Of a DNA stretch of 64,000 bases, positions 5,803 to 21,973 are shown in pieces. The notes beneath the pieces are model-generated. The model saw only the letters and a program-made list of their open reading frames with translations. It had not been told where the DNA came from and searched no databases. Where the stretch lies: positions 1-64,000 of the IMG/VR virus record IMGVR_UViG_3300012189_000001. One strand, 5' to 3'. Numbering within the stretch: position 1 is the stretch's first letter; every line of letters begins with the position of its first letter. The position numbers and the translations under genes are program-made. The DNA is from a virus.

Positions 5803-5804
5803 GT

Positions 5805-5960
5805 ATGTCCAAGGATACATTGACGACTATATGCGGCGCGGCATTGGCTATTCTCCATCAAGTAGGGATCGTCGGGGCTCTTCCTCAGACCAAGACTGAC
5901 TGGACGAATACGGGCGTGAGTGCTATGATGCTGGCACTCGGATACTTCACAAATAAATAA
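5805..5960 (+). CDS. 51-residue hydrophobic holin-like protein
   Basis: AAGGA at 5793-5797 lies 7 nt before the ATG. The product starts MSKDTLTTICGAALAIL and ends LGYFTNK. It has one hydrophobic segment at about 8-27 and a second at about 38-48 with a charged end, resembling small two-segment membrane proteins often found in phage structural blocks and sometimes called holins. It is the only holin-like candidate near the head genes, but no endolysin lies beside it, so the lysis role is a guess. Confidence 0.55.
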   Translation: MSKDTLTTICGAALAILHQVGIVGALPQTKTDWTNTGVSAMMLALGYFTNK

Positions 5961-5976
5961 TAATTGATGAATTCAT

Positions 5977-6309
5977 ATGAGTTACTCAGCAGGCTTTGGA
6001 AAGGCAAGATTAAGAAGGTTCCCGAATGCTGCCTACTCACCGTTTGAAACCAAGTACGACTTACGTGCGACCTGTACGGTATGCGGCTTCAAGGGTATTG
6101 ACGCGGTTGCTACGCAGGAGCCCGAAATGCAGTCATTTGGTACAGTCATCACTGGATCTGTCTATCAGATTCCTGTGGGTACCCCGGCTGACCAGCTTTC
6201 GAGTGCTATTGACAAGGATGTCTTTACGCAAGTGGGTGCGTTTGCAGGCTGTCCATTTTGTGGTAGTCCAAACTGGTCATGGGCCAGGGAAAATGGGCTC
6301 CAATGGTAA
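5977..6309 (+). CDS. zinc-ribbon protein, unknown
   Basis: A 110-residue protein with C-T-V-C around residue 33 and C-P-F-C around residue 92, the two knuckles of a zinc ribbon separated by a beta-rich insert. It has a basic N-terminus. No strong ribosome-binding site is visible in front of the ATG. Location between scaffold and capsid genes suggests a virion or assembly part, but no function is known to me. Confidence 0.65.
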   Translation: MSYSAGFGKARLRRFPNAAYSPFETKYDLRATCTVCGFKGIDAVATQEPEMQSFGTVITGSVYQIPVGTPADQLSSAIDKDVFTQVGAFAGCPFCGSPNWSWARENGLQW

Positions 6310-6329
6310 GTGCGTAGATGCTATTTTGG

Positions 6330-6338
6330 TGGTATAAT
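6330..6338 (+). promoter_or_regulatory. extended -10 promoter before HNH gene
   Basis: TGG followed by TATAAT (6333-6338) matches the extended -10 class exactly; no good -35 is visible at 17 nt. The start point would be near 6345, giving a leader of about 33 nt that carries the TTAGGAG site of the endonuclease gene. Confidence 0.5.
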
Positions 6339-6377
6339 CTTCTAAGGTGGTTAGTATTTAACTTCTTAGGAGATAAT

Positions 6378-6971
6378 ATGAGAAATCAAAATAGTGAAGC
6401 TCAACGTAAACGTGCTACAACGCATGGAATGACAAAAACATCGACGTATACAGCTTGGCGTTCTATGAAAAGACGCTGTACCCTTAAAACTGATCATTCT
6501 TATACACGGTATGGCGAACGAGGAATTACTATTTGTGCACGTTGGCTTTTATCTTTCGAGAATTTTTTAGCTGATATGGGTGAAAAGCCTGAAGGTTTTT
6601 ATTTAGACAGGATTGATAATAACGGCGGTTATGAATTAGGAAATTGCCGTTGGGTCGATGCAAAAACTTCAACATGGAATCGTGAATGCACGCGTTATGT
6701 TGAAGTAGAAGGTAAGTCAGTACCGATTATGGAAGCGGCACGTTTACTCGGTCTTGGCGAGTTAAGGCTTTACCACTTTATTAACAAGTACGGGGAAGTG
6801 GAAGGTATAGAACGCGCAAAAAATGCTATAGTTAGAAAACATTGGAGCATGACATACAAAGGTATTACACAAAGTGCTTCTCGTTGGGCCGAAGAATATG
6901 GAATTGATCGGGGTACTGTGCGTTATCGTATATCACGTGGATTAAGCCCTGAAGAAGTATTAGGTGTATAG
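6378..6971 (+). CDS. HNH-type homing endonuclease with HTH tail
   Basis: A 197-residue protein. The first half has the signature of phage mobile HNH-like nucleases: a W-R-S-M-K-R-R-C segment, YGERGI, a W-L-x-S-F-E-x-F-L-A-D-M-G segment, LDRIDNNGGY and NCRW. Two short helix-turn-helix-like repeats follow, the last with RWAEEYGIDRGTVRYRI. Such selfish genes cut an empty allele so that repair copies them in. TTAGGAG sets the ATG at 6378; an in-frame ATG at 6318 has no site. It is free-standing between two virion genes and has its own promoter. Confidence 0.85.
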   Translation: MRNQNSEAQRKRATTHGMTKTSTYTAWRSMKRRCTLKTDHSYTRYGERGITICARWLLSFENFLADMGEKPEGFYLDRIDNNGGYELGNCRWVDAKTSTWNRECTRYVEVEGKSVPIMEAARLLGLGELRLYHFINKYGEVEGIERAKNAIVRKHWSMTYKGITQSASRWAEEYGIDRGTVRYRISRGLSPEEVLGV

Positions 6972-6987
6972 TGGTAAGGAAAACTGA

Positions 6988-7179
6988 GTGAAATTAACCA
7001 CTGACGTTGACCATTACGTTAAAAATTATTCTGTTCAATTGTGTTTTCATGAGGATACACTTACTTTCACATTACGAAAATGTGGTATTAATGACATAAA
7101 TGATGAAATGCTTGAAACCTTAGAAGCATTTGCTGCTAAATTTCGTAATTGTAAGAAGGAAGAGAGCGATGCTGTATGA
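6988..7179 (+). CDS. small beta-rich protein, unknown (copy A)
   Basis: A 63-residue protein with a GTG start and TAAGGA 7 nt upstream. It is acidic with a cysteine-containing beta section (residues 14-30) and a C-terminal helix. It may be distantly related to the two small proteins encoded just downstream (7169 and 7478), which share the order of two beta strands with L-T-F/I and then a helix. Function unknown. Confidence 0.5.
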   Translation: MKLTTDVDHYVKNYSVQLCFHEDTLTFTLRKCGINDINDEMLETLEAFAAKFRNCKKEESDAV

Positions 7180-7378
7180 CAATGAAGCACATGATGATCG
7201 CACACGATATGCTTCTTGTTTCAGTGTGCAAGGAGAAGCAGAGGCTAGTGGTACTTTGTATCTGGATGACAAAAAAATTATTCTTACGTTTACTTCTGGT
7301 GCCGGAAAAGTCGAAAATGATTCATTGTCTCATTGCATAAATCTGGTTATACGGGATTTGTTAGCGTGTCTCGAATGA
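7169..7378 (+). CDS. small beta-rich protein, unknown (copy B)
   Basis: A 69-residue product beginning MLYDNEAHDD. The ATG at 7169 lies behind AAGGAAGAG and overlaps the previous gene by 11 nt. The central strand pattern GTLYLDDKKIILTFTSG followed by a helix resembles the gene at 7478. Possibly a decoration or cement-type protein, but this is only context. Confidence 0.5.
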   Translation: MLYDNEAHDDRTRYASCFSVQGEAEASGTLYLDDKKIILTFTSGAGKVENDSLSHCINLVIRDLLACLE

Positions 7379-7539
7379 GATTTGATACCGATGGCGGGGT
7401 CGTTTATAGAGTAAGACACCGTATTTATACGAAGAACCGGGCGCAAGTCCCGCATCGCCTCCTCGGTAAGGAGTATTGTGGTGAGACAAGATACCGGAAT
7501 ACGCCATATGCAAATTGGAACAGCGGCATCGCGTATTGA
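7375..7539 (+). CDS. basic 54-residue protein, uncertain
   Basis: The ATG overlaps the previous stop (ATGA), which favours coupled translation. The product is very basic and rich in arginine and tyrosine. It overlaps the next gene in another frame by 62 nt, so one of the two may be spurious. No family recognised. Confidence 0.3.
   Translation: MRFDTDGGVVYRVRHRIYTKNRAQVPHRLLGKEYCGETRYRNTPYANWNSGIAY
7459..7473 (+). promoter_or_regulatory. hairpin covering a ribosome-binding site
   Basis: CTCCT (7459-7463) can pair with AGGAG (7469-7473) over a 5-nt loop. AGGAG is the ribosome-binding site of the GTG-start gene at 7478/7481, so folding would hide it. This could couple its translation to ribosomes reading the upstream frame at 7375. 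Confidence 0.35.
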
Positions 7540-7750
7540 CGGGATTCTTGATGTACGCGAGAGCAAAATTCGGTTGACTATTCGCAATAAGACAATGCCA
7601 GATGAGCAGGTGGAAGAAATAACGCTCACCATCGTCAAAGACTTTTTACGTCAACTGCGGGAACATCGTGATGAAAATCGGCCAAACGATAAAGACAGGC
7701 GCTGGGTACCTTACGAAGGCATTGCCGCTGCACAAGTGGAGACGGCCTGA
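7478..7750 (+). CDS. small beta-rich protein, unknown (copy C)
   Basis: A 90-residue protein. Two GTG codons follow each other (7478, 7481); AAGGAG at 7468-7473 is better spaced for the second. It contains DGILDVRESKIRLTIRN and then a helix, a pattern seen in copy B. The C-terminus is charged. Function unknown; perhaps a third member of a small duplicated family. Confidence 0.55.
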   Translation: MVRQDTGIRHMQIGTAASRIDGILDVRESKIRLTIRNKTMPDEQVEEITLTIVKDFLRQLREHRDENRPNDKDRRWVPYEGIAAAQVETA

Positions 7751-7775
7751 CGGGCTTTCGTCCTTTCTTACAGAT

Positions 7776-8054
7776 ATGATTCAGCTACGAAAAGCCCTTT
7801 GTTTGTGCTCTTCGTGCGAATACAAAATGCCGCGAAAGTGGCAGGAGCGGTATAATTACACCCTCGTTAAAAATTTCCATGCGGATAACACAGGGTGTGA
7901 CTATTGCCGTCAAGAGACCTCGACGAACCTTTATGTGTCAACTGAAGGTAAGTATTGTCAAGAGATGTTGCTCACCGAAAAGTCGGTACGTGAAACAAAG
8001 GCTCGTGAGAGGATACAAGCAGAGCGTGATCGCGCTATGCTATTTGTTGGATAA
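7776..8054 (+). CDS. zinc-ribbon protein, unknown
   Basis: A 92-residue protein with C-L-C-S-S-C near residues 9-14 and C-D-Y-C near residue 50, consistent with a zinc-ribbon, followed by a basic helix rich in arginine. The frame is open further upstream, but the ATG at 7776 lies just behind the preceding gene and gives a compact product; a clear ribosome-binding site is lacking. Function unknown. Confidence 0.55.
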   Translation: MIQLRKALCLCSSCEYKMPRKWQERYNYTLVKNFHADNTGCDYCRQETSTNLYVSTEGKYCQEMLLTEKSVRETKARERIQAERDRAMLFVG

Positions 8055-8078
8055 TTGCCAGACTAAGGGAGACTAGAT

Positions 8079-8825
8079 ATGGCAAGCGTAGTAGGAAGTT
8101 TTTCCGGCGGAAAAAGTTTTTTGGCGGATTATTTCGCCAGCGCAGCGCTTACGGCTGGCCAGGTTGCAGTGCGCGAAGCAACAGCATCGAACATCGGCGA
8201 AGCAACGAACCCCTCCAGCACAACTTCGGTAACTGATGTTGTTGGTGTGCTGCTTGATCAGGCTACTTCGAACACCGCGCCGACAAAAGAGCCGGGTTTG
8301 CTTCTTGTCGTAACGACTGGTGGTCTTGAGAATATAGTGCGTGTGGATTCCAATCCGCTGGCTATTTTCCGCTTCATCGTATCGGGTGGGACGGCAGACA
8401 ACACCGCATTGCCGACAGCAGCTCCTGCCAATATTTTGACGAATACTGTGCTGAGTTCCGGTGGTACTGTTATTACGGCATTTGTAGGTACAGTGGATAT
8501 GTCTGGCGGGCTTATTAAGGGTCGCACTGGCAACAATGCCGGTTCAATTCGCAAAATGGTAAGCCAGATTGCGAGCACTTCGACAACTGTGGGTATCGCA
8601 TTTGTCAACGCAATTGCTGTGAACGATACGTTCATTCGTGTGCCTTTTAGTCGTGTGGCTGTTGCAATGACATTGACCACGCCTTTTGATCAGGCGAATG
8701 GTAATGTGGCATTTTCTACGTCTACTGCGAAGTTCCGCGTTGTCAATGTGAATATTGACGAGCAGAATAGTATCGTGACTGTGGATGTGATTGCTACACT
8801 GCATTTCTATAATAAAAATTCTTAG
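8079..8825 (+). CDS. putative capsid decoration/structural protein
   Basis: A 248-residue protein rich in alanine, threonine, serine and valine with few charged residues, typical of beta-rich virion surface proteins. It lies directly before the capsid gene. AAGGGAG sits 8 nt before the ATG. The N-terminal part (G-Q-V-A-V-R-E-A-T, then V-V-G-V-L-L-D) resembles decoration or head-stabilising proteins in general pattern. No catalytic motif is visible. Assignment is by position and composition. Confidence 0.5.
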   Translation: MASVVGSFSGGKSFLADYFASAALTAGQVAVREATASNIGEATNPSSTTSVTDVVGVLLDQATSNTAPTKEPGLLLVVTTGGLENIVRVDSNPLAIFRFIVSGGTADNTALPTAAPANILTNTVLSSGGTVITAFVGTVDMSGGLIKGRTGNNAGSIRKMVSQIASTSTTVGIAFVNAIAVNDTFIRVPFSRVAVAMTLTTPFDQANGNVAFSTSTAKFRVVNVNIDEQNSIVTVDVIATLHFYNKNS

Positions 8826-9015: not shown

Positions 9016-9933
9016 ATGGCAATTTTAGATCTTGCTAGTTTTCAGACATTAGTCGATAGACGTTATCGTGAAATAAAGGATTTTGAGCTTGCGTCTGTCA
9101 CTGATCAACTTCCCTTGTGGTTTGGGATGGAGACTTCAGATACGTTCGAAGAGCGCCGCTCGACTATCGGCGAACTTCCGATATGGGATACCTTCGGCGG
9201 TAATCTCCAGTACACACGTTTTTTCGAGCAGTACAATGCAGTGGCAACGCACATTGAGTTTACGCAGGGACTGCGTTGGACCCGTCGTATGATGGATGAC
9301 GATCTCACGGGAATTATGCGTGGGGACCGTTATCGTAAGATGGTGCGTTCTGGTGTTATTACTCGCCAGATTCACGGCGCTCGTCTTTGGAACTTCGCGG
9401 CCTCGAATGACTCCTTCTTCTATAATCGTTCTGAAGGCGTTCCTCTTGCCTCGGCAGCACACACTACTCGGGCAGACGGTGTGTCAACGGCAACCGGCTT
9501 CAACAACATCACGGTATCCGATTTAGCTCCTACCTCGTATCGCGCTCTGCGTCAACAGATGCGGCGTTTTGCGAATGATCGCGGGTTCATCATCAATGTT
9601 ATTCCTGATTGCCTCGTTGTGCCAATTGAACTTGAGCAACGGGCTATGGAAATTCAGGACTCTCCCGGCGATGCAGACACCGCTCGTCGTTCCAGCAACC
9701 CGGAAGCCAGCACGGCGTCTATCGAAGTCCCTCTGTATTGGACGTCAACTACCAACTGGGCACTGTGCAATAAAGCATTGATGCATGAGAATCTGATTTG
9801 GTTTGACCACACAACCCCAGATTTCAACAGCGTCGTGGATTTTGAAACTTTCCAGCTCAAGGCAAGTGGTTATATGCGCTATTCTTGGCTCGCGTTGGAC
9901 TGGCGGTGGTTAAGTTACGGCAACGTTTCGTAA
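9016..9933 (+). CDS. major capsid protein
   Basis: This 305-residue protein follows portal, scaffold-like and decoration-like genes and has the expected length for an HK97-fold shell protein. It is rich in aromatic residues and arginine with no signal or membrane segment. The N-terminal helix (LASFQTLVDRRYREI) and the WTRRMMDDDL region suit the E-loop and spine parts of capsid proteins resembling the Mu gpT type. AAGGA sets the ATG. The foldable leader upstream suggests control at the RNA level. Its last 24 bases overlap the end of the opposite-strand HNH gene. Confidence 0.8.
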   Translation: MAILDLASFQTLVDRRYREIKDFELASVTDQLPLWFGMETSDTFEERRSTIGELPIWDTFGGNLQYTRFFEQYNAVATHIEFTQGLRWTRRMMDDDLTGIMRGDRYRKMVRSGVITRQIHGARLWNFAASNDSFFYNRSEGVPLASAAHTTRADGVSTATGFNNITVSDLAPTSYRALRQQMRRFANDRGFIINVIPDCLVVPIELEQRAMEIQDSPGDADTARRSSNPEASTASIEVPLYWTSTTNWALCNKALMHENLIWFDHTTPDFNSVVDFETFQLKASGYMRYSWLALDWRWLSYGNVS

Positions 9934-10491
9934 TCCAATTAACTTAGTTGGGTTACTTAGCGTAAGAAGTAAGGGTTGTACGGGAACTAATGGCCCTTTG
10001 TCATGTTTACTCGCATTGCAACTACGACACGCAGGTACGATATTATGAAGAGTATGTGATCCGCCTTGAGATATCGCGGTAATATGATCCATTTCCAGGC
10101 GGATGCACTCTTTATCGCAGTACGCGCAGCGGTTTTCAAAAGCGATTTTCATTTCTTGCCATTGAGCAGAACTAAAATCGTTTATAGGTGCCCTAGCTTT
10201 ACGGGCGCGGCGCGCAATAGTATAGGGTACCTGTTTTTGAGCAAGTTCTTTTCGATGTTGTTCTCTGTAACGACGATTTCGTTCTCGCGCTTCTTTGAGA
10301 TGAGTTTTACGCCATTTATTCATGTCCTGGCGTTTTTGTTCTTTCATTACTTCTTTGTTTGCTGCATATTTAGCGGCATTGAAAACTTGATTGTAGCAAG
10401 CATGTGTGCAATATTGTTTGACGCGGCCACCGCCGCCTTTACGTGGTGTGTATTCGAATGGCGTACCGCAATTAACGCAGAGTTTTTCCAT
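9910..10491 (-). CDS. HNH homing endonuclease (classical)
   Basis: A 193-residue protein with an N-terminal C-V-N-C zinc knuckle (residues 5-8), a long basic helix (40-85) and a classical HNH core: C-A-Y-C at 122-125, MDH at 134-136, the asparagine at 150 and C-R-S-C-N at 155-159. It is free-standing and reads against the capsid gene, ending inside its last codons. AGGAGG lies 6 nt before the ATG. It has its own promoter candidate 100 nt upstream. A selfish element next to a conserved essential gene is the usual homing location. Confidence 0.9.
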   Translation of the reverse strand: MEKLCVNCGTPFEYTPRKGGGGRVKQYCTHACYNQVFNAAKYAANKEVMKEQKRQDMNKWRKTHLKEARERNRRYREQHRKELAQKQVPYTIARRARKARAPINDFSSAQWQEMKIAFENRCAYCDKECIRLEMDHITAISQGGSHTLHNIVPACRSCNASKHDKGPLVPVQPLLLTLSNPTKLIGLRNVAVT

Positions 10492-10520
10492 GAGATACCT
10501 CCTACTTAGGTTATGTGGAT

Positions 10521-10579
10521 TGTCGGGCTTCCTACAGAAGTAGGCTGCGGGAATTTAGAGTGATCAGCTCAACCCGACA
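10521..10579. ncRNA. possible folded RNA element
   Basis: TGTCGGG (10521-10527) pairs perfectly with CCCGACA (10573-10579). Inside are the hairpin CCTAC-AGAA-GTAGG (10531-10544) and a short GAG/CTC stem over a TGATCA core. This again gives a three-way-junction shape, next to the HNH gene, and it can form on either strand. It was not recognised as a group I intron. Confidence 0.3.
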
Positions 10580-10608
10580 TTGTTGAATTGTACCATGGGT
10601 GTTATATT
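10580..10608 (+). promoter_or_regulatory. candidate rightward promoter
   Basis: TTGTTG (10580-10585), 17 nt and TATATT (10603-10608) form a moderate sigma70-type promoter ending 18 nt before the ATG of the next + gene. It restarts late transcription after the opposite-strand HNH gene and overlaps the leftward promoter below. Confidence 0.4.
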
Positions 10609-10616
10609 TTTGGCAA
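10587..10616 (-). promoter_or_regulatory. promoter for leftward HNH gene
   Basis: On the - strand TTGCCA (complement of 10611-10616), an 18-nt spacer and TACAAT (complement of 10587-10592) with a TGG just before it make a good promoter with an extended -10. The transcript would start near 10580 and carry the folded element and the AGGAGG site of the HNH gene. Confidence 0.5.
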
Positions 10617-10626
10617 AGGAGTAAAT

Positions 10627-11025
10627 ATGGCAAAGACCATTGTGGTTGATATTACCTATGATGGTGTACTGAATCAGCCCTGCTCATCGGCATTTGCAAG
10701 CGCATATACTCGCTTGTATAACCAGATTAGTGGTGATGCAACGCTATCGGCTGGTCGTGTTATCATGGCACTTGCTGGCGATAAATTCGCAGACAAATTT
10801 GGTAGTGAGTCTACTGTTACACGAAGTGACAGTACTCACGACATGTATCGCGTCTTGATCACCTTTGCACAGGCAGTAGGCACACCATGTGATGCAGATA
10901 TTGTCACAGCTTATAATGCGTTGCAAGCAATGATTGCAGGTGACAGCGTACTTTCTTTAGGTCATTATATTACTTCATTGTACGATACTGCGTTGTATGG
11001 TGGTGAATCTGGTGGTGACGAATAA
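10627..11025 (+). CDS. hypothetical virion-region protein
   Basis: A 132-residue acidic protein, mostly helical, with an even spread of alanine and aspartate. AAAGGAG is 5 nt before the ATG at 10627; an in-frame ATG at 10588 lies inside the promoter. It is the first gene after the capsid on this strand, so a head-tail or decoration role is plausible. No family recognised. Confidence 0.6.
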   Translation: MAKTIVVDITYDGVLNQPCSSAFASAYTRLYNQISGDATLSAGRVIMALAGDKFADKFGSESTVTRSDSTHDMYRVLITFAQAVGTPCDADIVTAYNALQAMIAGDSVLSLGHYITSLYDTALYGGESGGDE

Positions 11026-12300: not shown

Positions 12301-13977
12301 ATGCCTTTAGCCGGTTATCCAAGTCTTCTGGCAGGGTTTGGCCCGCCATTTTTGAACGTGTCTCCCCAAGTTACCACTGGGAAGATGTTCTTTGTATCAT
12401 CTGTGGTTGGTAAGGCGAACAATGTTGGCGATGATCCGCTTCGCCCTCTTGCTACCTTGACTCAGGCTCTTGCTAAAGCCCGTGCAAATAAGGGTGACTA
12501 TATCATCTTAATGCCCAGTCACGCAGAAACGGTGACGGCTATTGGCGGCATTACCGTGAGTACGGCGGGTGTTACGGTTATCGGCATGGGTGTTGGTGCG
12601 CAGCGTCCTACCTTCACGTTCAGTACTGTTGCAGGCGCTTCGTTGCTTGTCAATGCCGTCGATTTTAAGATGTATAACGTTGTAGGCGTATGCGGTGTGG
12701 CCCTCCTGACCCAGCCGTTTGATATCGAAGCGAGTGGATGTTATCTGGATGTTGAATGGCAAGATCCTTCCTCAGCGCTTCAGTCGGTGTCGCCTTTCGG
12801 TATAGCTCTCACGTCGGCAGTGAGTAACGTCTACTTGCGAGCGCGTATTCTCGGCCAAACCTCTGGTGGCACCGCTCCTGTGCAGGGTGTGGTCATTGGT
12901 GGTACGGCTGTCACACTTACGACGGGTGTTATTGATCTTGATTTTTACGGTCGCGCTTCGACAGCGGTTGTCAACTTTGTTTCGCAGGCGGCTATTGATA
13001 TTCGTGTTATCGGCACGATCTACAACAGCGGTGTAACGGACGGCTCGAAGAATGTTGTGGATACGGTAACGGGCTCTACCTGGTTTGCTTCAGTCAATGA
13101 TGCAGCGGCTGGACAGGTGTGGTCTGGCGGTAGCGGCGCAGCGGCTGGTCTCGGCAGCACCTCTCTTCTTGTGCCTACGGCTAACTCGACCGCCGACTTG
13201 TTGGAACGCGATGTTATCGGTAATAAGACTGACACAACCGTTGATGTTGTCGGGACTACGAAGTCCCTTCTGGCATATGCAAAGGGTTCTATTGCCAATC
13301 TGAGCGGTGCAGCAGGTGTTGCGACCTATCCTACGGCGGCTGCATACACCAACGGTGTATCGATTGCGGCTGTTCTTGGCTACGTTCAGGATGGTGTGCG
13401 TCGTGGTTCCGGTACCATTATGCCTGCGAATACATCGGTATGGGATGTGCTGGGTTCGGGTACTGGCACATTCACGTTTCCGGCTGCGGCAACCCCTGCA
13501 AACAACGTGAGTATCGCTCAGGTTGTGCGCGAATTGTTTAACCAGACTGACCAGGCGGTCAATACTACTGCTGGTGGTGTGGCAATTTCGCTGGCAACCG
13601 TCAGTATTTTTACCATCGCGGGCGGTCCTATTGAAGTGCTTGGTCTCTACTGGATTTGGCAGACAGCGGCTCAAGCAGTAGCGACAACGTTGCAGTTTAA
13701 TGTGAATGCAACATCCGGTGGCGCAACAACTGTCTCTGGGGCATCCGCTTCACAGTCTGGTGTTGCGGCTGGTACCTCAGGTATGTGTGTTGGAACTTTT
13801 GTTACCGCACCAACAATCACCACTGGTGGCACAGTCGCTACTGGCACTGTAAAGTTCATGGTACCAGCAGGGTCTATTCAGTATATTGCTGGTACGAGCG
13901 CGAATACGGGCTTGGTGACATGGTATTTGCGGTATCGCCCACTAGCTCGCGGTGTAACCGTTGTAGCGGCCATCTAA
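12301..13977 (+). CDS. beta-helix-type virion surface protein
   Basis: A 558-residue protein, alanine/threonine/valine-rich with few lysines. Residues 25-110 carry the pattern often seen at the start of phage right-handed beta-helix proteins: a G-x-D-D-P-x-R-P-L-A-T-L segment, an alanine-rich helix, then D-Y-I-I-L-M-P-S-H and repeated V-T-V-I-G strands. The C-terminal 150 residues look like a separate beta domain ending L-R-Y-R-P. It could be a head fibre or receptor-binding protein. A strong terminator follows it. Confidence 0.6.
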   Translation: MPLAGYPSLLAGFGPPFLNVSPQVTTGKMFFVSSVVGKANNVGDDPLRPLATLTQALAKARANKGDYIILMPSHAETVTAIGGITVSTAGVTVIGMGVGAQRPTFTFSTVAGASLLVNAVDFKMYNVVGVCGVALLTQPFDIEASGCYLDVEWQDPSSALQSVSPFGIALTSAVSNVYLRARILGQTSGGTAPVQGVVIGGTAVTLTTGVIDLDFYGRASTAVVNFVSQAAIDIRVIGTIYNSGVTDGSKNVVDTVTGSTWFASVNDAAAGQVWSGGSGAAAGLGSTSLLVPTANSTADLLERDVIGNKTDTTVDVVGTTKSLLAYAKGSIANLSGAAGVATYPTAAAYTNGVSIAAVLGYVQDGVRRGSGTIMPANTSVWDVLGSGTGTFTFPAAATPANNVSIAQVVRELFNQTDQAVNTTAGGVAISLATVSIFTIAGGPIEVLGLYWIWQTAAQAVATTLQFNVNATSGGATTVSGASASQSGVAAGTSGMCVGTFVTAPTITTGGTVATGTVKFMVPAGSIQYIAGTSANTGLVTWYLRYRPLARGVTVVAAI

Positions 13978-13985
13978 GTGACGTC

Positions 13986-14013
13986 GGGGCACCTTAAGGT
14001 GCCCCTGCTTTTC
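13986..14013 (+). terminator. intrinsic terminator
   Basis: A perfect 20-bp palindrome (13986-14005; arms GGGGCACCTT and AAGGTGCCCC) is followed by TGCTTTTC. It would end or attenuate transcription from the capsid region before the block of tiny basic proteins. Confidence 0.75.
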
Positions 14014-14028
14014 AGGGAGGATACGAAA

Positions 14029-14202
14029 ATTCCTGCAAAATCGAAGGCTCAGGCGCGGTTCATGTTCGCGGAGATGGGGCGTAAGAAGAAGGGCAAGAAG
14101 ACAGAAACTGGTATGAGTGAAGATCAGTTGAAGGATTTCACGAAAACGAAACAAAAAGGTCTTCCCGAAAAAATAAAGAAAACTAAGAAGGGAAAGAAGT
14201 GA
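14029..14202 (+). CDS. small lysine-rich protein, DUF3008-like, AUU start
   Basis: Read from the ATT at 14029 the product is 57 residues and starts (initiator counted as Met) MPAKSKAQARFM and later has KDFTKTKQKGLPEK. Both stretches match what I recall of a small phage/bacterial family (DUF3008) whose members begin MPAKSKAQ. AGGGAGG at 14014-14020 is spaced 8 nt from this ATT. The only other start in frame, GTG at 13978, would put the terminator stem inside the coding region. Function unknown; DNA-binding or disordered is likely. The stop overlaps the next ATG. Confidence 0.7.
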   Translation: MPAKSKAQARFMFAEMGRKKKGKKTETGMSEDQLKDFTKTKQKGLPEKIKKTKKGKK

Positions 14203-14360
14203 TGGCGAAGGCAATGAAGAAAGAAAAGCACGGCAAGATGTCGGGGCGTACTCCTCACGAAGAGCCACATGAGAAGACGGGTGGCAAGGGCATGATGGAG
14301 CAGAAGTCTCGCGGCAAAAAGGGTGGCAAGTCCAAGAAAATGAGTGGGAAATCCTACTAG
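14202..14360 (+). CDS. 52-residue lysine-rich protein
   Basis: It starts in a TGATG overlap. The product is about one third lysine and glycine and contains KHGKMSGRTPHEEPHEK. KMSGR recurs in the next gene, suggesting duplication. It has no hydrophobic core, so it is probably disordered. It may be a DNA-associated head protein or a peptide substrate of the nearby ATP-grasp enzyme; both are inference. Confidence 0.55.
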   Translation: MAKAMKKEKHGKMSGRTPHEEPHEKTGGKGMMEQKSRGKKGGKSKKMSGKSY

Positions 14361-14374
14361 GGAGATGAGAGATC

Positions 14375-14545
14375 GTGGGGAAGACCTATAAGAACAAGTC
14401 ATCTTCAAAGATGTCTGGACGTAGCAGTGAGAAGAGTGGTCGTACTGATGACCCCGATCTCGCTCTTGATATGTTGATGCAGAAGAAACAGAAGTCTACG
14501 AGTCGTAAGGGTATGAAACACAATCAATCGGGACGATCAGAATAA
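14375..14545 (+). CDS. 56-residue lysine/serine-rich protein
   Basis: GTG start with AGGGAG 10 nt upstream. The product starts MGKTYKNKSSSKMSGRSS and shares KMSGR with the preceding gene. It is rich in lysine, serine and threonine with a short acidic/hydrophobic middle (DDPDLALDMLMQ). Function unknown. Confidence 0.5.
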   Translation: MGKTYKNKSSSKMSGRSSEKSGRTDDPDLALDMLMQKKQKSTSRKGMKHNQSGRSE

Positions 14546-14546
14546 T

Positions 14547-14849
14547 ATGATTGATGAAAGACGTTACACGGTAGAAGACTGTACGGAAGAAGACACGATT
14601 TATCTTAACGTCCACATATCTCAACAATATGTAGATGGGTATTGTCGTGTCGGCAACCGCATGCTTCAGGGACGATTGGAAGTGAATCCGGCGTGGTTTT
14701 CTTCGACAAATCTTGAAAAGGCTATTGATACGCAAACGCGTTCGGGTCAGTTGAGCTTGAATGACATGCACGGTTTTGATTGGGAAGCCGATTACAATCT
14801 TGAAGATTTAAAATTGGATTATCCAGTCATTATAACTGAGATGGAATAG
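14547..14849 (+). CDS. acidic hypothetical protein
   Basis: A 100-residue protein with many aspartates and glutamates and a beta-like N-terminus. Its stop abuts the ATG of the ATP-grasp gene, with no gap, so the two are probably translated together. No family recognised; it could be a partner or substrate of the downstream enzyme. Confidence 0.6.
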   Translation: MIDERRYTVEDCTEEDTIYLNVHISQQYVDGYCRVGNRMLQGRLEVNPAWFSSTNLEKAIDTQTRSGQLSLNDMHGFDWEADYNLEDLKLDYPVIITEME

Positions 14850-16181
14850 ATGCCAAGATTTTTCCTGTGGAGCCCAAACGGTGATGGTGACTGTGTAAGT
14901 TACAGGCTTCATCTTGAGGGCGAAGATGTGGTATTGCGCATCGACGAGGCGTGGTCTCGGCCAAATCTTGAAGGAATTGTCGAGCACACAACGGCGTATC
15001 CACGAAAAGGCGATATCGTCATTTTTGGGTCGAGCAAACTCGGACAGGAAGCGGCGAAACTCCAAAAGGCAGGTTTTGGTGTTATTGGAAGTTGCCCGTA
15101 TGCGGACGATCTTGAAATGGACCGCTGGTTTTTTATTCAAGAATGTAAACGTCTCGGCATTAAAACCCCAGAAACACACCGATTTAACAGTTACGATAAA
15201 GCCCGTGCTTTTGTGCAACAACGGGGTGAGCGGTGGGTGTTTAAACCGTCTGGTGATCAGGAATCTGCCTGTACTTTTGTGGCAAAAGACGATGAAGAAC
15301 TGCTTTTTGCGTTTGACCATCTTGAAAAGCAAATTCCAAAGGCTGATTTCCTCCTTCAGCATTTTGAAGAAGGTATTGAAATCTCTCTTGAAGGATGGTT
15401 CAACGGGCACGATTGGATCAAAAACTCCTGGAATGCCACCAAAGAAACCAAGAAACTCATGGCCGGTGATATCGGACCCGCAACCGGATGTTCGTCAAAT
15501 GCGGTATACTTATTTGAAGGTACCCCGAGTTGGGTTCGCAAACTCCATGATAAATTCACTCCCATGCTTCGACGGGATAAGTACAAAGGCCCTTTTGATC
15601 TCAATATGATCGTGACGAAGGATGCAATGTATGCATTGGAAGCAACGCCTCGTTTTGGCCTTGAAGGCATTCAAAACTTTATCGAACTCTGGCATACCTC
15701 AGCGGGCGAAACATTTGAAGAGTTGGCCGCTGGTACATTGGGGTCCTTTGACGTTGATACCGCTTCCCTCGCTGCCGCCGTTCGCTTGGCTGTAGGACCC
15801 TACCCATTTGGGAGTAAAGAACACAGGACATCCGGCGATATCCCCGTCCTCATTGATGAAGCTGATACATGGACATTATGGATGTCAGGTGTTTGGAAAG
15901 AAGATGATATGTATTGTGTCGCTCCTACCGATGGTTGCATTGGTGCGCTCGTAGTGAAAGATACAACGATTGACAGAGCGGCAAAAACGTTGATGGAGAC
16001 GGCAAAACGTATTCACATCCCTGATCTTATGTATCGCAATGATGTCGGCGCAGGGCATCTGAAGATGTGGCAAGAGTTAGATGGGTATGGTTTTGACATT
16101 CCCCCAGCAGTCGAGGCTATGCTCAAACGTAAGCCTGTGCTTGATCAGGGATCACCTTTTAAGAAAATGGTATGGGTGTAA
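14850..16181 (+). CDS. ATP-grasp ligase (PurD-like fold)
   Basis: A 443-residue enzyme. The ATP-binding lid has W-V-F-K-P-S-G-D at 129-136 (K132 as phosphate ligand), FLLQHFEEG at 167-175 and EISLEG at 177-182. The Mg-binding end is ALEATPRFG at 262-270, close to the E-x-N-x-R-F-G of glycinamide ribonucleotide synthetase. ATP-grasp enzymes join a carboxylate to an amine through an acyl-phosphate. In phages the substrate is unknown. Its place among virion genes and next to tiny lysine-rich proteins argues for peptide or protein modification rather than purine synthesis. Confidence 0.85.
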   Translation: MPRFFLWSPNGDGDCVSYRLHLEGEDVVLRIDEAWSRPNLEGIVEHTTAYPRKGDIVIFGSSKLGQEAAKLQKAGFGVIGSCPYADDLEMDRWFFIQECKRLGIKTPETHRFNSYDKARAFVQQRGERWVFKPSGDQESACTFVAKDDEELLFAFDHLEKQIPKADFLLQHFEEGIEISLEGWFNGHDWIKNSWNATKETKKLMAGDIGPATGCSSNAVYLFEGTPSWVRKLHDKFTPMLRRDKYKGPFDLNMIVTKDAMYALEATPRFGLEGIQNFIELWHTSAGETFEELAAGTLGSFDVDTASLAAAVRLAVGPYPFGSKEHRTSGDIPVLIDEADTWTLWMSGVWKEDDMYCVAPTDGCIGALVVKDTTIDRAAKTLMETAKRIHIPDLMYRNDVGAGHLKMWQELDGYGFDIPPAVEAMLKRKPVLDQGSPFKKMVWV

Positions 16182-16193
16182 GGAGAATAAGCA

Positions 16194-17231
16194 GTGGCAT
16201 CCAGTGATTTTTACCCGTTCGAATCCACTTTTGAAGTGTCAGACTTCACAGAATGGACGAGTACTGTTGATACGCAAAGCAAGATGGAAGTTATCCATCT
16301 TCTTGACATCGTCAAAAAGTGGGGAAATGGCTTTCCCGGCGTTGCGCCATATCGTGGGAACTATGTCGATCACATCAATATCGCTTTGGGTACGGCTGAC
16401 GCCTATGCGCAGACGACAGTGGTAACAGCCGCGCTCGGTACGACGATATGGGTACGATTTTTCTTGCAGGTTACAAATAACCTGGTTATGGCTACAAGTG
16501 ACCGTTTCACCATACTTTCAGTGCAATCTGCTGGTGCAGTTGAGCAAGGCACTATCAGCATTCTCAACAATGTTGGTATTATACAACTTGTCGCAGCACA
16601 GACGGGATCGACTGCCATTGGCGCACTTACGGTACAAGCTGAATTTGAGCGCGATATTTATCACCTTGTTGAACTCGGCATGACCATTGATTCTGGCGCG
16701 GCAGACGGCACATTACAGTTTTGGTTGGACGGCAATCAGGTGGGTTCGACGATTACTGGATTAACGCAGGCAGCGATTACTCAGATGCGCCTCGGAGCTA
16801 TAGGCATTGATGCAGGCACCACTGCTGGGCATCTCCTATTCGATCAGGTTGTTCAAGCACTTACACACGTTGACGGTTTTTATCGGCGCTACCCCCAAGT
16901 TGTAGTGCTTACAAAGAGCGGATTTATAGCTCTTGGCCCAGGTAAAATCGAAGAATACACGCTTGTGGCCGGTGGGGCTGTCGATAATCATATGAGTGTC
17001 TATGATCTCGACAGACAACCTCTTCTAGGTCTTAGCGATTTTCTCGGCCCAGAGTTGACAAATTCCCATGCGTTTGAAGCAAAGGTATTTGCCTACTCGA
17101 AAAAGGATGGCTATTTCAACAGAGGCTTGTACGTGAGACTGATAGGCACAGCCCCTAGAGCCACAGTGACACTAGGAGCTGGGCAGACGACTTTGGGTAC
17201 CCTCAGACAGTACGCCATACGGAAATATTAG
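16194..17231 (+). CDS. ConA-like lectin-fold fibre protein
   Basis: A 345-residue protein with GTG start and AAGGAGAA upstream. Strand patterns such as IWVRFFLQV, LVELGMTID and LQFWLDGNQVGS resemble the jelly-roll of concanavalin A-like domains that bind glycans. The C-terminal 110 residues form a separate beta domain. It lies at the start of the fibre region and may recognise host polysaccharide. No signal peptide, unlike the five genes that follow. Confidence 0.55.
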   Translation: MASSDFYPFESTFEVSDFTEWTSTVDTQSKMEVIHLLDIVKKWGNGFPGVAPYRGNYVDHINIALGTADAYAQTTVVTAALGTTIWVRFFLQVTNNLVMATSDRFTILSVQSAGAVEQGTISILNNVGIIQLVAAQTGSTAIGALTVQAEFERDIYHLVELGMTIDSGAADGTLQFWLDGNQVGSTITGLTQAAITQMRLGAIGIDAGTTAGHLLFDQVVQALTHVDGFYRRYPQVVVLTKSGFIALGPGKIEEYTLVAGGAVDNHMSVYDLDRQPLLGLSDFLGPELTNSHAFEAKVFAYSKKDGYFNRGLYVRLIGTAPRATVTLGAGQTTLGTLRQYAIRKY

Positions 17232-17252: not shown

Positions 17253-18044
17253 GTGCGGCGATTACTTTATGCATTCATAACACTTGGTGCTCTACTCTGC
17301 GCATCTCAGGTGTTTGCCCAGCAATCAGTAGGCCCCATAACACTCCAATCGACAGGGGCTATTGGAAATGGTACTGCTCCTTCAACTGTGGGACTTACCC
17401 TCGCCACTGTGCAAGTTGTCGCGGCTGGAGGCTTTGATCGCACCTTGAATTTTGAAGTAACAGAAGATGCTACGAATTATCAAGCTGTATCTTGTTTAAA
17501 TGTTTCAACGAGTATGCAGTCAACGACAGCGACAGTAAGTGGTATTTATACGTGTTCTATTGGTGGGGCTCAGCTTTTTCGAGCGCGAACAAGTGATGGC
17601 GCTGCGAATGGCACGTTGAAGGTAAGTGTTACATTCAATCAGGGTGTTATTTCTGCAGGCGTTGCATCAGCATCTTCGGGTACAGCTTCATCGACAACAT
17701 CTGCGGTATCGCCTGTTGAAGGGTCAACCCTCTTTAATACTTCTACCGTAAGTGCGGCAGCTACTGCTTTGACGACATCTATCGCGGGAGCTGCAACTAC
17801 TCGCGTGCACCTCTACAGTGCAAGTGCGTACTGCTCAGCAGGTTCAGCAACTTTGACAATCAAAGATGGAGTGGCAGGTACAACGATCTGGGTTTCGCCA
17901 GCCGGATTTGTCGGAACAGTGGTTACATCCCTTACGTGGACTGCCGGTTTGACAAGTACTACAGCGAATGGTATGGATATCGTGCTTGGCTCATGCGGTG
18001 GGGCGAATACCGGAACATTACAAGTTGAAGCAGATAGATTCTAG
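17253..18044 (+). CDS. secreted beta-rich protein (signal cassette 1)
   Basis: A 263-residue protein with a clear Sec signal peptide: basic MRR, hydrophobic core to residue 20, cleavage after V-F-A at 22. The mature part is serine/threonine/alanine/glycine-rich with paired cysteines, which suits the oxidising periplasm or the outside. GTG start with AAGGAG upstream. It is the first of five consecutive genes with such leaders. It could be displayed on the infected cell or released; a virion part exported before assembly would be odd. Confidence 0.7.
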   Translation: MRRLLYAFITLGALLCASQVFAQQSVGPITLQSTGAIGNGTAPSTVGLTLATVQVVAAGGFDRTLNFEVTEDATNYQAVSCLNVSTSMQSTTATVSGIYTCSIGGAQLFRARTSDGAANGTLKVSVTFNQGVISAGVASASSGTASSTTSAVSPVEGSTLFNTSTVSAAATALTTSIAGAATTRVHLYSASAYCSAGSATLTIKDGVAGTTIWVSPAGFVGTVVTSLTWTAGLTSTTANGMDIVLGSCGGANTGTLQVEADRF

Positions 18045-18059
18045 CAACAAAGGTGGTCT

Positions 18060-18320
18060 ATGAATCGCGCAGTCGGATATTTCGTTGTGTGTGCGTTGTT
18101 CGCGGGAGTTACAACAGTATTTGCGGAAGATGCCAAACCTTCTAACTGTGCAGAAGACCTCGAAGTAATGAAGCTGGTGTACGCCACTTCTCGGGGCAAT
18201 GCTGAATCGTATCTAGAGACCTTGGCACGTACTGATATCAAATTGAAGGCGATTCAAGCACAACTTGCGGAGGCCAACCAGAAAATAAAGGCGTTTGAAG
18301 AGACGAAATCCAAGGAGTAA
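18060..18320 (+). CDS. small secreted coiled-coil protein (cassette 2)
   Basis: An 86-residue product with a 22-residue signal peptide ending V-F-A. The mature 64 residues are helical, with heptad-like ALARTD/IKLKAIQAQLAEA segments at the C-terminal half and one cysteine. It could form a coiled-coil stalk. AAAGGTGG precedes the ATG. Function unknown. Confidence 0.65.
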   Translation: MNRAVGYFVVCALFAGVTTVFAEDAKPSNCAEDLEVMKLVYATSRGNAESYLETLARTDIKLKAIQAQLAEANQKIKAFEETKSKE

Positions 18321-18325
18321 ACTCA

Positions 18326-19846
18326 ATGCGAAAATGGTTAGGCAGTCTTCTCATTATTGGGATGATGCTTGTTGCTCAGTCTGTGCAGGCGCAAATAGTG
18401 TCACAAATACCGTGGACGGCTGGATACGGCGGTACGGGATTTTCGACGTATACGATTGGTGATATGCTGTATGCCGATACAGCAAGTACATTGGCTAAGT
18501 TAGTGAGTCCCGTGACAGGACAAGTTATCACATCTGGTGGAGCAGGAGTCGCACCCGCGTGGAGTGCTAGTCCAACACTTACAACAAGTTTGACAACACC
18601 GTTGTTTATTGGTGGGACAGCAGTTGGCTCAACACTTACATTCAAGTCAACAAGTGCTGTTGGGACAACCGACGCTATTATTTTTCAAGTTGGAAATAAC
18701 GGCGGAACTGAGTCAATGCGCATTATCGACAGCGGCAATGTAGGTATTGGGCAGACAGTGCCGACTGCTTTACTCGATATTAAGGGAACTGCTGCGGGCG
18801 CAGAAATGATCATAGGTCCTTGGGCTGGAAGTACGGCCTACATGGCAGTTGGCCTCGCTAATTCTGTTGCAGCAACTACCTACAACTTTATAAGTAGTAC
18901 AACTGACACGAATTTGTATCTCAACAGACCAACGGGCAAGGATATTGCTTTTCGAGAGGCCAATCAGGGTAATATCAATGCAGTAATCTTTAGAGGTACG
19001 ACCGGATTCGTCGAAATATCGGGGGACGCGGCAAAGACTGTTAGTATGGCCCGCAATCCGGTTGCAAATACCGCAGGAAATGCTCTCACTGTGCAGTCCG
19101 GTTCGGCTACCTCTGCTGCGACCGATAAAAATGCAGGTACCCTTGTTTTGGCGTCAGGTCTTTCGACAGGTACAGGATCGGGAGGCATAAATCTACAAAC
19201 ATCCTCACAACAAGCAACGACAAATACGACTGATAATGCAGTTGCTACACGGCTCGCACTTGACGGATACGGGCATATAACTCACACTCCTGCGGTAGGC
19301 ACTGCCACTGTCGCGGCGAGTTTTACGCTCACAGGAGCGGCACACACCGCATTAACTGCGAGTACTGAGCGCTTCGATACCAACTTCAATAGTGCTCGTA
19401 CTGTGCAATGGGCAACAGGGGCATTGACAACTCAACGCTTTAACCTCTTCCAGGCTCCTACAGTCGGTTTTGTCGGCGGCAGTACAATAACGAATACGTG
19501 TACCCTCTGTGTAACTGGAGCTCCAGTATCGGGCACGAATGCAACACTTTCAAGTACGCATGGCTTGCTTATCCAGGCGGGAGCAGTGACAGCAGCAACA
19601 AATGCCTTTGGATTAACGGCAAATGCTCCTACAGGAGGTACCACCAATTACGCTGGGCAGTTTATTGGGGAAGTTCTTTTGGGTTCGACAGCTTTTGCAA
19701 GTCTCGGCACGCCAGCAAATGGGGCAATAACGTTTTGCAATGATTGTGATGCCCCGACGCTTGTTGATAGTACTTGCACTAGTGCAGGGGCCAAAACAGG
19801 TAGTTTTGCGGTGCGCGCAAACGGAGCCTGGAAGTGCATTTCATAG
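18326..19846 (+). CDS. secreted tail-fibre-like protein (cassette 3)
   Basis: A 506-residue protein with a 22-residue signal peptide ending V-Q-A. The mature part has typical fibre elements: YGGTGFSTYTIGDMLY near residue 34, STLAKL, and D-S-G-N-V-G-I-G-Q-T-x-P around residues 135-146, known from trimeric fibres. It ends with a cysteine-rich section (C-N-D-C-D, C-T-S). It shares a segment with the non-secreted fibre at 28580. A fibre that is exported would end up outside the cytoplasm where virions assemble, which is hard to explain. Confidence 0.7.
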   Translation: MRKWLGSLLIIGMMLVAQSVQAQIVSQIPWTAGYGGTGFSTYTIGDMLYADTASTLAKLVSPVTGQVITSGGAGVAPAWSASPTLTTSLTTPLFIGGTAVGSTLTFKSTSAVGTTDAIIFQVGNNGGTESMRIIDSGNVGIGQTVPTALLDIKGTAAGAEMIIGPWAGSTAYMAVGLANSVAATTYNFISSTTDTNLYLNRPTGKDIAFREANQGNINAVIFRGTTGFVEISGDAAKTVSMARNPVANTAGNALTVQSGSATSAATDKNAGTLVLASGLSTGTGSGGINLQTSSQQATTNTTDNAVATRLALDGYGHITHTPAVGTATVAASFTLTGAAHTALTASTERFDTNFNSARTVQWATGALTTQRFNLFQAPTVGFVGGSTITNTCTLCVTGAPVSGTNATLSSTHGLLIQAGAVTAATNAFGLTANAPTGGTTNYAGQFIGEVLLGSTAFASLGTPANGAITFCNDCDAPTLVDSTCTSAGAKTGSFAVRANGAWKCIS

Positions 19847-19865
19847 GAGGCAAAAACGCAAACAT

Positions 19866-20282
19866 ATGAAGTACTGGATTTTTGTTGTGTTATTTTTACT
19901 AGGCGCTACGGTAAGTTATGCGCAATATAATGTCGCGCCGCCCACAAGTTGCCCAACTGGGCAATCAATCACATGGGATGGAGCCAATTGGTCCTGTGCT
20001 ATACAAGTACCAAGCGGTTCTATTTTCATGTTTCTCACTGGGTGCCCATCTGGGTTTTCAGAGGTGCAGCAGGCAGCAGGCTCGATGTTACTTTCAACAA
20101 CTGCCGGGCAGCAAAATGCTGGGAGTTTTAGTTCTTTTGCTGTGATTACGCCTTCAACAACGAACATACTCAATTCCCAGTTAGGAGGTCGTCCTGTTTT
20201 GGGGTTTCCGCAGGCTGTTCCTGACGCGCTGAATGGGAAGTTTCCAACAACAATACGTGTTATTTTGTGTCAAAAAAACTAA
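19866..20282 (+). CDS. secreted tail-collar-like protein (cassette 4)
   Basis: A 138-residue protein with a 19-residue signal peptide ending S-Y-A. The mature part contains IPSG-like VPSGSIFMF and CPSGFSEV, reminiscent of the phage tail-collar fold found at fibre tips, and four cysteines. The frame is open upstream, but the ATG at 19866 starts the signal peptide; AGGAGG lies 13-18 nt upstream, somewhat far. Confidence 0.65.
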   Translation: MKYWIFVVLFLLGATVSYAQYNVAPPTSCPTGQSITWDGANWSCAIQVPSGSIFMFLTGCPSGFSEVQQAAGSMLLSTTAGQQNAGSFSSFAVITPSTTNILNSQLGGRPVLGFPQAVPDALNGKFPTTIRVILCQKN

Positions 20283-20296
20283 CAAAGGAGTTTACG

Positions 20297-20761
20297 ATGA
20301 AACGTGGATTACTGATGACTTTAGTCGGTGGGTTGTTTCTCATGTCCGCTCAGTTTGTGAATGCGCAGGGTATCCCTGGCACTCTGGTACAGCAGACGCC
20401 TACACGACTCGATTCTGCTACTCAGTCAGCGAGCAGCGCAACGTCGGCTGCTACCTTGACGCTGACCCCCAATGGCGGTGAATACGTGTATATTTATGCA
20501 GTTGACGTTGCTAATTGCGCCGGTGCGTCTAACGTGGTTGCCGCTGCACCAACGACGATCACTACGACGAATATTTCTGGATCTCTTAGTTTCACGTTGG
20601 GATCTGGCACAACTGCGGGTCAATGTACGCAGTTTGAAGCAATAGCCTATCCTACGGGCTTGAAAAGTCAGACATCGGGTGTCGCAACGACGTTTATATT
20701 ACCGACATTTGCAACAAATCAAACAGTGCGTTTGAATGTTATCTGGCGTTCTGCACCGTAA
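20297..20761 (+). CDS. secreted beta-rich protein (cassette 5)
   Basis: A 154-residue protein with a 23-residue signal peptide ending V-N-A. The mature part is threonine/alanine-rich with strand patterns YVYIYAVDV and VRLNVIWRS and two cysteines. AAAGGAG sets the ATG. It is the last of the signal-peptide run and is followed by the first adaptor. Function unknown. Confidence 0.7.
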   Translation: MKRGLLMTLVGGLFLMSAQFVNAQGIPGTLVQQTPTRLDSATQSASSATSAATLTLTPNGGEYVYIYAVDVANCAGASNVVAAAPTTITTTNISGSLSFTLGSGTTAGQCTQFEAIAYPTGLKSQTSGVATTFILPTFATNQTVRLNVIWRSAP

Positions 20762-20770
20762 GGACGAGAC

Positions 20771-21442
20771 GTGACCACCCTTGCAGTTCTTGTCAACGAA
20801 CTTCGACCACGAGCACAGCGGCTGGGTCTCCAAGATCCAGTCACTGGGCTCGTCGATGATAGCGAATTATCAACATATCTCGTAGAATCAATGCGATATT
20901 TGGCGAATCGTTATCAGTTGCAGCATTTCATACGGATTAATCGCCAGCTCTTCATTACCCAAGCCAATGTTGAGCAATATGATATCCCAGATAACTACGG
21001 TTTCTGGTCACCAGAAGAAACCTATCGCTCGGGCTTGTCTGTAACAAATACGGATGGTACGCAGACAACGAATTTGACGTATTACAATCCGGCAAAGTTC
21101 AACCTAGTACGGAGTCCTGGGCTGACCAACAAGCCCTCATGGTTTACGGTAACGCAAGGATTGATATACTTTGCACCAATACCGGATGCCTCCTACATTA
21201 TTGAGGCTATTGAGCGACAGGTGCAGGACGGAACAGATATCCCCGTGCCTTATGCAGAGGCAATTAAGATTGAAGCCCTGCTGAAACTGGCATCTGACAC
21301 CGGAAAAGTTACACCTTTGCTTGTCGATGAGCACACACAGATTCTGCGGACCCTTGTAAATGGGGAGTCTCGTTTTCGCCAGAGATTCTACACCTCACGC
21401 GAGCGTTTAGGGTTCAGTCGCTATAGGCGATATGGCCTGTAA
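20771..21442 (+). CDS. head-tail adaptor-like protein 1
   Basis: A 223-residue protein with GTG start and AAGGACGAG upstream. The N-terminal helix pair ([13 protein letters not shown], then [13 protein letters not shown]) and the middle [13 protein letters not shown] strand match the layout of the genes at 22572, 26291 and 26956. Such proteins form dodecameric rings below the portal in short-tailed phages. Four copies are unusual, so some may serve elsewhere. Its last 36 bases overlap the opposite-strand HNH gene. Confidence 0.6.
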
Positions 21443-21937
21443 TTGTTTCTTTGTTCGTCTTGGTCGTCTGTTATTTGCTTGCTCTTTACGAGTTGCCCAT
21501 CGACAGTTTTTTAGGCTGTAAGGACCGTTGTTATCTATACGTTCTAGAGTATGATAAGGAGACGGCCTTTCACCTACATCCGCACAAAAGGTTTTTAAGT
21601 TATGCCAGCGTTCGTCAACAAAAATACCCCTTCCTCCGTAGTCGGGGTAGGATTTATTTGTCGGTGTATAGCAGCGTTTCATAAGGTTGTACCAAGTTTT
21701 ACAATTTGGAGTATAACATAGTCCATGTTTTGTCTGTCTTTGTATAACACCTTCTAATTTAAGACAGCCACAACTTTGAGAGCGGCCACATCTAAGTCGA
21801 TGGCCATAAACAGGTTTTTGTGTTCCACAGTCACACTGGCACATCCATATCGCATTGCCATTTTTTGTGCTACAATAGTGTAAAACTGTCCAACGCCCAA
21901 AACGGTGTCCATTAATATCTTTTGTGTGATTAGTCAT
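21407..21937 (-). CDS. AP2/HNH-type homing endonuclease, leaderless
   Basis: A 176-residue protein starting [14 protein letters not shown]. The N-terminal half has an AP2-like DNA-binding pattern with C-Q-C-D-C-G and SCGC (zinc-like cysteines). The C-terminal half has [24 protein letters not shown] and NCRW, as in the nuclease at 6378. It reads against the fibre operon. A consensus promoter ends right at its ATG, so the mRNA should be leaderless. An in-frame ATG at 21973 would overlap the -35 box and is less likely. Confidence 0.85.
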
Positions 21938-21944
21938 GTTGAAC

Positions 21945-21973
21945 AGTATACCAAGAACGGATAGGATTGTCAA
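21945..21973 (-). promoter_or_regulatory. consensus promoter for leaderless HNH mRNA
   Basis: On the - strand TTGACA (complement of 21968-21973), exactly 17 nt, then TATACT (complement of 21945-21950). The start point is expected near 21938, one base before the ATG at 21937. The -35 box overlaps the ATG of the + strand gene at 21973, so the two genes share these bases. Confidence 0.75.

Follow-up and report, generated by a model that had tools for sequence, protein, structure and literature searches.

Five consecutive genes with signal peptides as a probable export cassette in the late structural operon of an SU10-like phage

Why would a tailed phage place a run of five genes with signal peptides among the genes that build its virion? 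The question is raised by the window considered here, a stretch of 64,000 bases (bases 1-64,000 of the 69,109-base IMG/VR record IMGVR_UViG_3300012189_000001) from an uncultured virus, in which a cassette of five genes sits within a late operon on the + strand. A preliminary description of this DNA had listed five open reading frames with their starts, each with an A-x-A cleavage site that is followed by Q in four cases and by E in one, and re-reading of the sequence reproduced these assignments exactly. The five genes are as follows.

17253..18044, + strand: predicted exported protein 1, 263 residues, GTG start; beta-rich type; signal peptide 17253-17318 (MRRLLYAFITLGALLCASQVFA, predicted cleavage before QQ), score 13.2; four Cys in the mature part.
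18060..18320, + strand: predicted exported protein 2, 86 residues; signal peptide 18060-18125 (MNRAVGYFVVCALFAGVTTVFA, predicted cleavage before ED), score 13.1; one Cys in the mature part.
18326..19846, + strand: predicted exported fibre-like protein 3, 506 residues; signal peptide 18326-18391 (MRKWLGSLLIIGMMLVAQSVQA, predicted cleavage before QI), score 14.5; six Cys.
19866..20282, + strand: predicted exported protein 4, 138 residues; signal peptide 19866-19922 (MKYWIFVVLFLLGATVSYA, predicted cleavage before QY), score 14.3; four Cys.
20297..20761, + strand: predicted exported protein 5, 154 residues; signal peptide 20297-20365 (MKRGLLMTLVGGLFLMSAQFVNA, predicted cleavage before QG), score 13.2; two Cys.

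All five N-termini have a basic n-region, a hydrophobic core, and the A-x-A site, and a good Shine-Dalgarno sequence lies ahead of 17253, 18060, 18326, and 20297. A lipobox Cys at +1 and a twin-arginine motif are absent in every case, so lipoprotein export and Tat export were rejected and the five look like substrates of Sec and signal peptidase I. The signal peptides were scored with a simple hand-written function on the n-, h-, and c-regions, which takes the best of several start codons per gene. Signal-peptide prediction, a check that the preliminary description had proposed, gave 13.1-14.5 for the five with this home-made score. Elsewhere in the 69-kb genome all genes stay below 13, alternative starts included; the highest values there are 11.8 and 11.1, both from internal starts. 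Because shuffles rarely reach 13 (4 of 8400 for shuffled late-gene N-termini and 42 of 10000 for shuffles of the five genes' own N-termini), a run of five such signals is far beyond chance. When applied to seven other phages, the same score made only plausible picks (a small holin-slot protein of SU10, four genes of MW202444, and gp19 of BcepC6B). Tail fibres of Bcep22-like phages, which lack true signal peptides, served as negative controls; since the ordinary tail fibres of BcepIL02 and JC1 top out at 11.8, a value of about 13 is a safe threshold.

The score has false positives at about 10-12, for example among the Ala-rich N-termini of ordinary tail fibres, and this gives some room to the alternative that nothing is exported, the proteins being ordinary virion components whose N-terminal hydrophobic segments are incidental, or act as anchors that are not cleaved or as tags for assembly. 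Against it stand values of 13-14.5 on five consecutive genes and, in addition, three lines of evidence that are independent of the score. The first is the Cys content. The mature parts of the five proteins contain 17 Cys in 1039 residues (1.64%), in mostly even counts (4, 1, 6, 4, and 2), versus 14 in 9150 residues (0.15%) for the 23 other virion-type proteins of the window, which is an 11-fold enrichment (p = 8e-10). Such a pattern fits an oxidising compartment, and it points to export since proteins of the reducing cytoplasm have no evident use for extra paired Cys. The same trend, exported versus other proteins, is seen in two relatives of the phage, L010 (2.0 versus 0.7%) and L020 (1.9 versus 0.4%); in a third, L011, the difference (1.2 versus 0.6%) is not significant.

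The second line of evidence comes from the position of the cassette in these relatives, three phages found by a capsid-protein search (capsid 68-74% identical), a number at which frequencies are rough. The slot runs from a LamG-like gene to the first SU10-type adaptor gene, and in each of the three relatives it holds one to three signal-peptide genes; a search for the run of genes in related phages had also been proposed in the preliminary description. The boundaries in the window and the signal-peptide genes of the relatives are listed here.

16194..17231, + strand: left boundary of the slot, LamG-like gene without a signal peptide, 36-40% identity in the three relatives.
20771..21442, + strand: right boundary of the slot, SU10-type adaptor gene 1, PF24175 E-value 1.4e-6, 43-58% identity in relatives.
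L010, 16276, 17719, and 18947: three signal-peptide genes in the slot.
L010, 3568: further signal-peptide gene, after the portal gene; its N-terminus is without a basic residue and it was called by eye.
L011, 15921 in the slot and 13937 just left of the LamG gene: signal-peptide genes.
L020, 14778, 16892, and 18431: three signal-peptide genes in the slot.

By BLAST, the mature sequences across the slot are mostly unrelated, and the feature that persists there is predicted export rather than mature sequence. The product of L011:15921 is a beta-helix protein, homologous to that of L010:3568, with pectate-lyase-type Pfam matches just under the cut-off; that of L020:14778 combines phage-fibre repeats with a Cys-rich C-terminal half; and that of L020:16892 is kelch-like by a weak match. 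Lectin or hydrolase activity of slot proteins is a suggestion from these resemblances.

The third line of evidence concerns the product of 18326, which is a mosaic of phage-fibre modules. A stretch of 41 residues resembles a tail-fibre gene of MW202545, and three further parts can be placed on the DNA.

18698..18937, + strand: stalk module of the 18326 product, residues 125-204, GNVGIG repeat, resembling the Bdellovibrio mosaic adhesive trimer (MAT) fibre Bd2133.
19271..19591, + strand: module of the 18326 product, residues 316-422, 40-50% identical to fibre genes of two huge phages.
19694..19843, + strand: C-terminal four-Cys domain of the 18326 product, residues 457-506, present elsewhere on signal-peptide proteins (alignments and loci).

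The two huge-phage homologues of residues 316-422 are without signal peptides, and where the predicted exported module reads C-T-L-C they read A-T-L-Y or A-T-L-A; a Cys pair found only in the copy with a signal peptide was counted for export and oxidative folding. The C-terminal domain has the motif CxxC...C...RxNGAWxC. A search of viral contigs with only the C-terminal part of the 18326 product, in alignment with its counterpart from MW202444, found the domain in eleven other contigs, a number at which frequencies are rough. In seven cases the 5' end of the gene is intact, and all seven of these proteins have a signal peptide at the N-terminus, although one scores only 9.6. At equal stringency, a signal peptide is present in six of these seven versus 2 of 43 other long open frames at the same loci (p = 1e-5), the control having been given the same freedom of start codon choice. 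One viral contig, L050, was seen to carry a run of three signal-peptide genes followed by a lipoprotein-like gene with 18 Cys (5585-8132 and 9632-10768).

Cys enrichment, a slot that keeps its signal peptides in relatives, and the association of the C-terminal domain with signal peptides thus support, independently of the score, what the preliminary description had claimed, namely export of all five. It is very probable that all five are exported, Sec export with disulfide-bonded folding is strongly indicated by the sequences, and the alternative of no export is highly improbable.

What kind of phage carries the cassette, and when would it be expressed? The genome matches the SU10 portal profile PF23899 and contains four PF24175 adaptor genes, and because these match SU10 families the virus is classed from its sequence as an SU10-like short-tailed phage. 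It also encodes a class II ribonucleotide reductase, a family A DNA polymerase, and a SNF2-like helicase. A genome of about 69 kb that is circular or circularly permuted follows from a near-identical partial contig, which overlaps it in such a way that the window's right end (92.5% identical) is placed upstream of the left 9.2 kb (98.8% identical); this contig stops short of the cassette. On the + strand, no promoter-like site was found within the cassette, and since the genes lie within the structural operon as well, the cassette is probably expressed late. Two scans of genome contigs found no relatives and so gave no link to a host or prophage. Contamination with host DNA as the source of the cassette was rejected, the slot being kept in relatives.

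What the exported proteins do is only weakly indicated. The roles offered in the preliminary description (a coat on the infected cell, decoys against superinfection, a change in adhesion, or a structure outside the cell) are candidates among which the sequences do not choose. In the explanation that is preferred here, the slot would be an export cassette within the late structural operon of this group of SU10-like short-tailed phages. Its products would be made alongside the virion proteins, exported through Sec with cleavage after A-x-A, and would form disulfide bonds on folding in the periplasm. They would be adhesin-type or glycan-active proteins built at least in part of phage-fibre modules; this phage would use a stalk with a Cys-rich tip, and its relatives would use beta-helix, fibre-repeat, or kelch-like proteins. 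Acting either at the envelope or once lysis has released them, these products would bind or cut glycans or receptors of the host surface. This would keep progeny from sticking to the dying cell and its remains, and competing phages would meet receptors that are already occupied. As a whole this explanation is just on the probable side. It is somewhat probable that the proteins have an accessory function at the envelope or outside the cell and are not virion parts; their place in the genome, differing number, and differing tips agree with this.

The other four proteins add little to the assignment of function. None of the five could be assigned to a usable family in Pfam, PHROGs, NCBIfam, or PADLOC; the PADLOC defence and anti-defence profiles had no match to four of them and one weak match to 18060 (E-value 0.003). 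A tblastn search with the 17253, 19866, and 20297 proteins against the phage collection returned nothing significant, and 17253 and 20297 encode small proteins without a family match. AlphaFold models made without an alignment were uninformative for the 17253 and 18326 products (predicted local distance difference test values of 38 and 33, respectively). The statement in the preliminary description that two of the five carry fibre- or collar-like motifs holds for 18326, with its fibre modules, and is less well supported for 19866, whose product is collar-type by eye but has no Pfam Collar match; the term 'fibre-like' is well supported for 18326 only. The mature part of the 18060 product is short and coiled-coil-like, and L010:18947-19258 shares its layout, with marginal BLASTP similarity (E-value 0.04). 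Instead of acting on surface glycans, 18060 may serve lysis; both may be lysis proteins, spanin-like in the case of 18060, although no family match to an Rz-type spanin was found for 18060 and no partner o-spanin was seen. In the viral contig L055, a signal-peptide protein loosely like that of 18060, with a weak Rz match (E-value 0.007), lies beside an exported fibre.

Several observations weigh against the preferred explanation. The signal peptides are predictions of a single heuristic, home-made score; the roles suggested for the slot proteins of relatives depend on weak Pfam matches; and a comparison of the five with the phage's other proteins found no shared tip, although a shared tip would have favoured receptor masking. 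In addition, the location within the virion operon and the shared fibre modules also fit a virion part. The preliminary description had regarded export as unexpected on the premise that virion parts assemble in the cytoplasm, but this premise is not airtight: the proteins could be virion fibres whose folding depends on an oxidising compartment and which stay in the periplasm until the inner membrane is breached at lysis and they can attach to virions. In support, the cassette is part of the structural operon and adjoins an adaptor gene, 18326 is built of virion-fibre modules, and some relatives show partial conservation of the N-terminal regions with divergence of the remainder. However, the number of genes per genome ranges from one to five, most of the products are without a shared docking domain, and a separate, non-exported fibre family of the same phage (family 12301), with a conserved N-terminus and a divergent remainder, better fits the pattern of a virion fibre. 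To our knowledge, no tailed phage folds fibres in the periplasm and then attaches them to virions, and attachment of this kind is the chief alternative account of the cassette, though an unlikely one.

Receptor masking, which overlaps with the preferred explanation, would place the exported proteins on the host surface, where this phage and its relatives would find the receptor blocked. Its precedent is Llp of phage T5, a small lipoprotein that is made early, exported during infection, and acts on the receptor at the envelope. The five proteins would resemble Llp in being exported during infection and, as proposed, in acting at the envelope, and they are adhesin-like and variable in sequence, as receptor-specific blockers would be. 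They differ from it in that they are non-lipidated, larger, partly fibre-like, and encoded in a late operon, in a cassette where no + strand promoter-like site was found, whereas superinfection exclusion usually belongs to early genes or to prophages. They also have no tip in common with the phage's own fibres, and masking is quite improbable.

How far does the cassette resemble systems that are already known? MAT fibres of Bdellovibrio bacteriovorus are exported phage-fibre-like trimers of a bacterium (PMC10769870). Like the 18326 product, they have a signal peptide followed by phage-fibre-like modules, and the sole PDB match of the 18326 product is to one of them, Bd2133 (8OND), although this match, through the stalk repeat, is weak (whole-sequence E-value 0.01) and is no more than a hint of a trimeric beta-prism stalk. 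MAT fibres are encoded by a predatory bacterium and have a conserved beta-rich domain of about 130 residues after the signal peptide, and many end in an S74 domain; the five genes, by contrast, are viral and lie in a late operon. Comparable genes of cultured phages are BcepC6B gp19, annotated as 'tail fiber', and orf35 of Xanthomonas phage PBR31, a 'putative structural protein'; the two products share 52-55% identity in the N- and C-terminal parts. Like the five, they combine a signal peptide, fibre-type sequence, and a few Cys with a place in the late region beside other fibre genes. Each differs in being a single gene beside the lysis module (between a tailspike or fibre gene and the holin), and no sequence similarity to the five was detected. 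No comment on the orf35 protein was found in the PBR31 paper. The C-terminal domain of gp19 also ends a Phimunavirus tail-spike attachment protein, which is without a signal peptide, and this shared tip domain is a further point in favour of virion fibres. The Manatee Spring phage MW202444 encodes a 1253-residue protein with a signal peptide and the same four-Cys domain as 18326; its genome is unrelated, and it has two other small signal-peptide genes, one of them directly downstream. In this phage, a gene annotated as a Sep15/SelM redox domain (35906-36151) adjoins the 1253-residue fibre gene and might aid disulfide formation. SU10, representing Kuravirus, shares the portal and adaptor families and general gene order; it differs in that, within the 50 kb scanned, only the 72-residue putative holin is signal-peptide-like, and the tail fibre gp12 is not. 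Exported phage proteins and exported phage-fibre-like trimers in Bdellovibrio are thus known already. In agreement with the preliminary description, which knew of no such system, no description of exported phage fibre cassettes was found in the literature searched, with most subscription papers lying outside it; in that literature, a position-conserved run of exported, Cys-rich, fibre-type genes inside a tailed-phage structural operon is new.

Some other features of the genome may be recorded. The four SU10-type adaptor paralogues (20771, 22572, 26291, and 26956) seemingly exceed the needs of one adaptor ring. An ATP-grasp gene (GARS_A type, E-value 2e-8) lies within the structural operon at 14850-16181, and L010 has a family 2 glycosyltransferase-like gene in a comparable place (13810-14595). 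The DNA polymerase A (49778-52288, minus strand) contains a 3'-5' exonuclease and a weak N-terminal uracil-DNA-glycosylase-like domain. A 51-residue hydrophobic open reading frame at 5805-5960 could be a holin, and no endolysin gene was recognised in the window except a transglycosylase-domain virion protein at 34808. Small minus-strand open reading frames within the + strand late region (9910-10491 and 21407-21973) are of the HNH/homing-endonuclease type by eye.

Phage annotation now assumes that fibre-like genes of the structural module encode virion parts assembled in the cytoplasm. If exported, disulfide-bonded proteins of this kind are a recurring class, many 'tail fibre' calls in environmental phages would be misplaced, host-range predictions built on such calls would be off, and there would be a new, testable level on which phages act, at the infected cell or beyond it. 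More tentatively, and as a doubtful generalisation for now, tailed phages may run a second, extracytoplasmic assembly line, in which fibre parts from the late operon are exported, stapled by disulfides in the periplasm, and then either join virions at lysis or go free as fibres that manage receptors. If so, the four-Cys domain would be a marker of the class in environmental phages.

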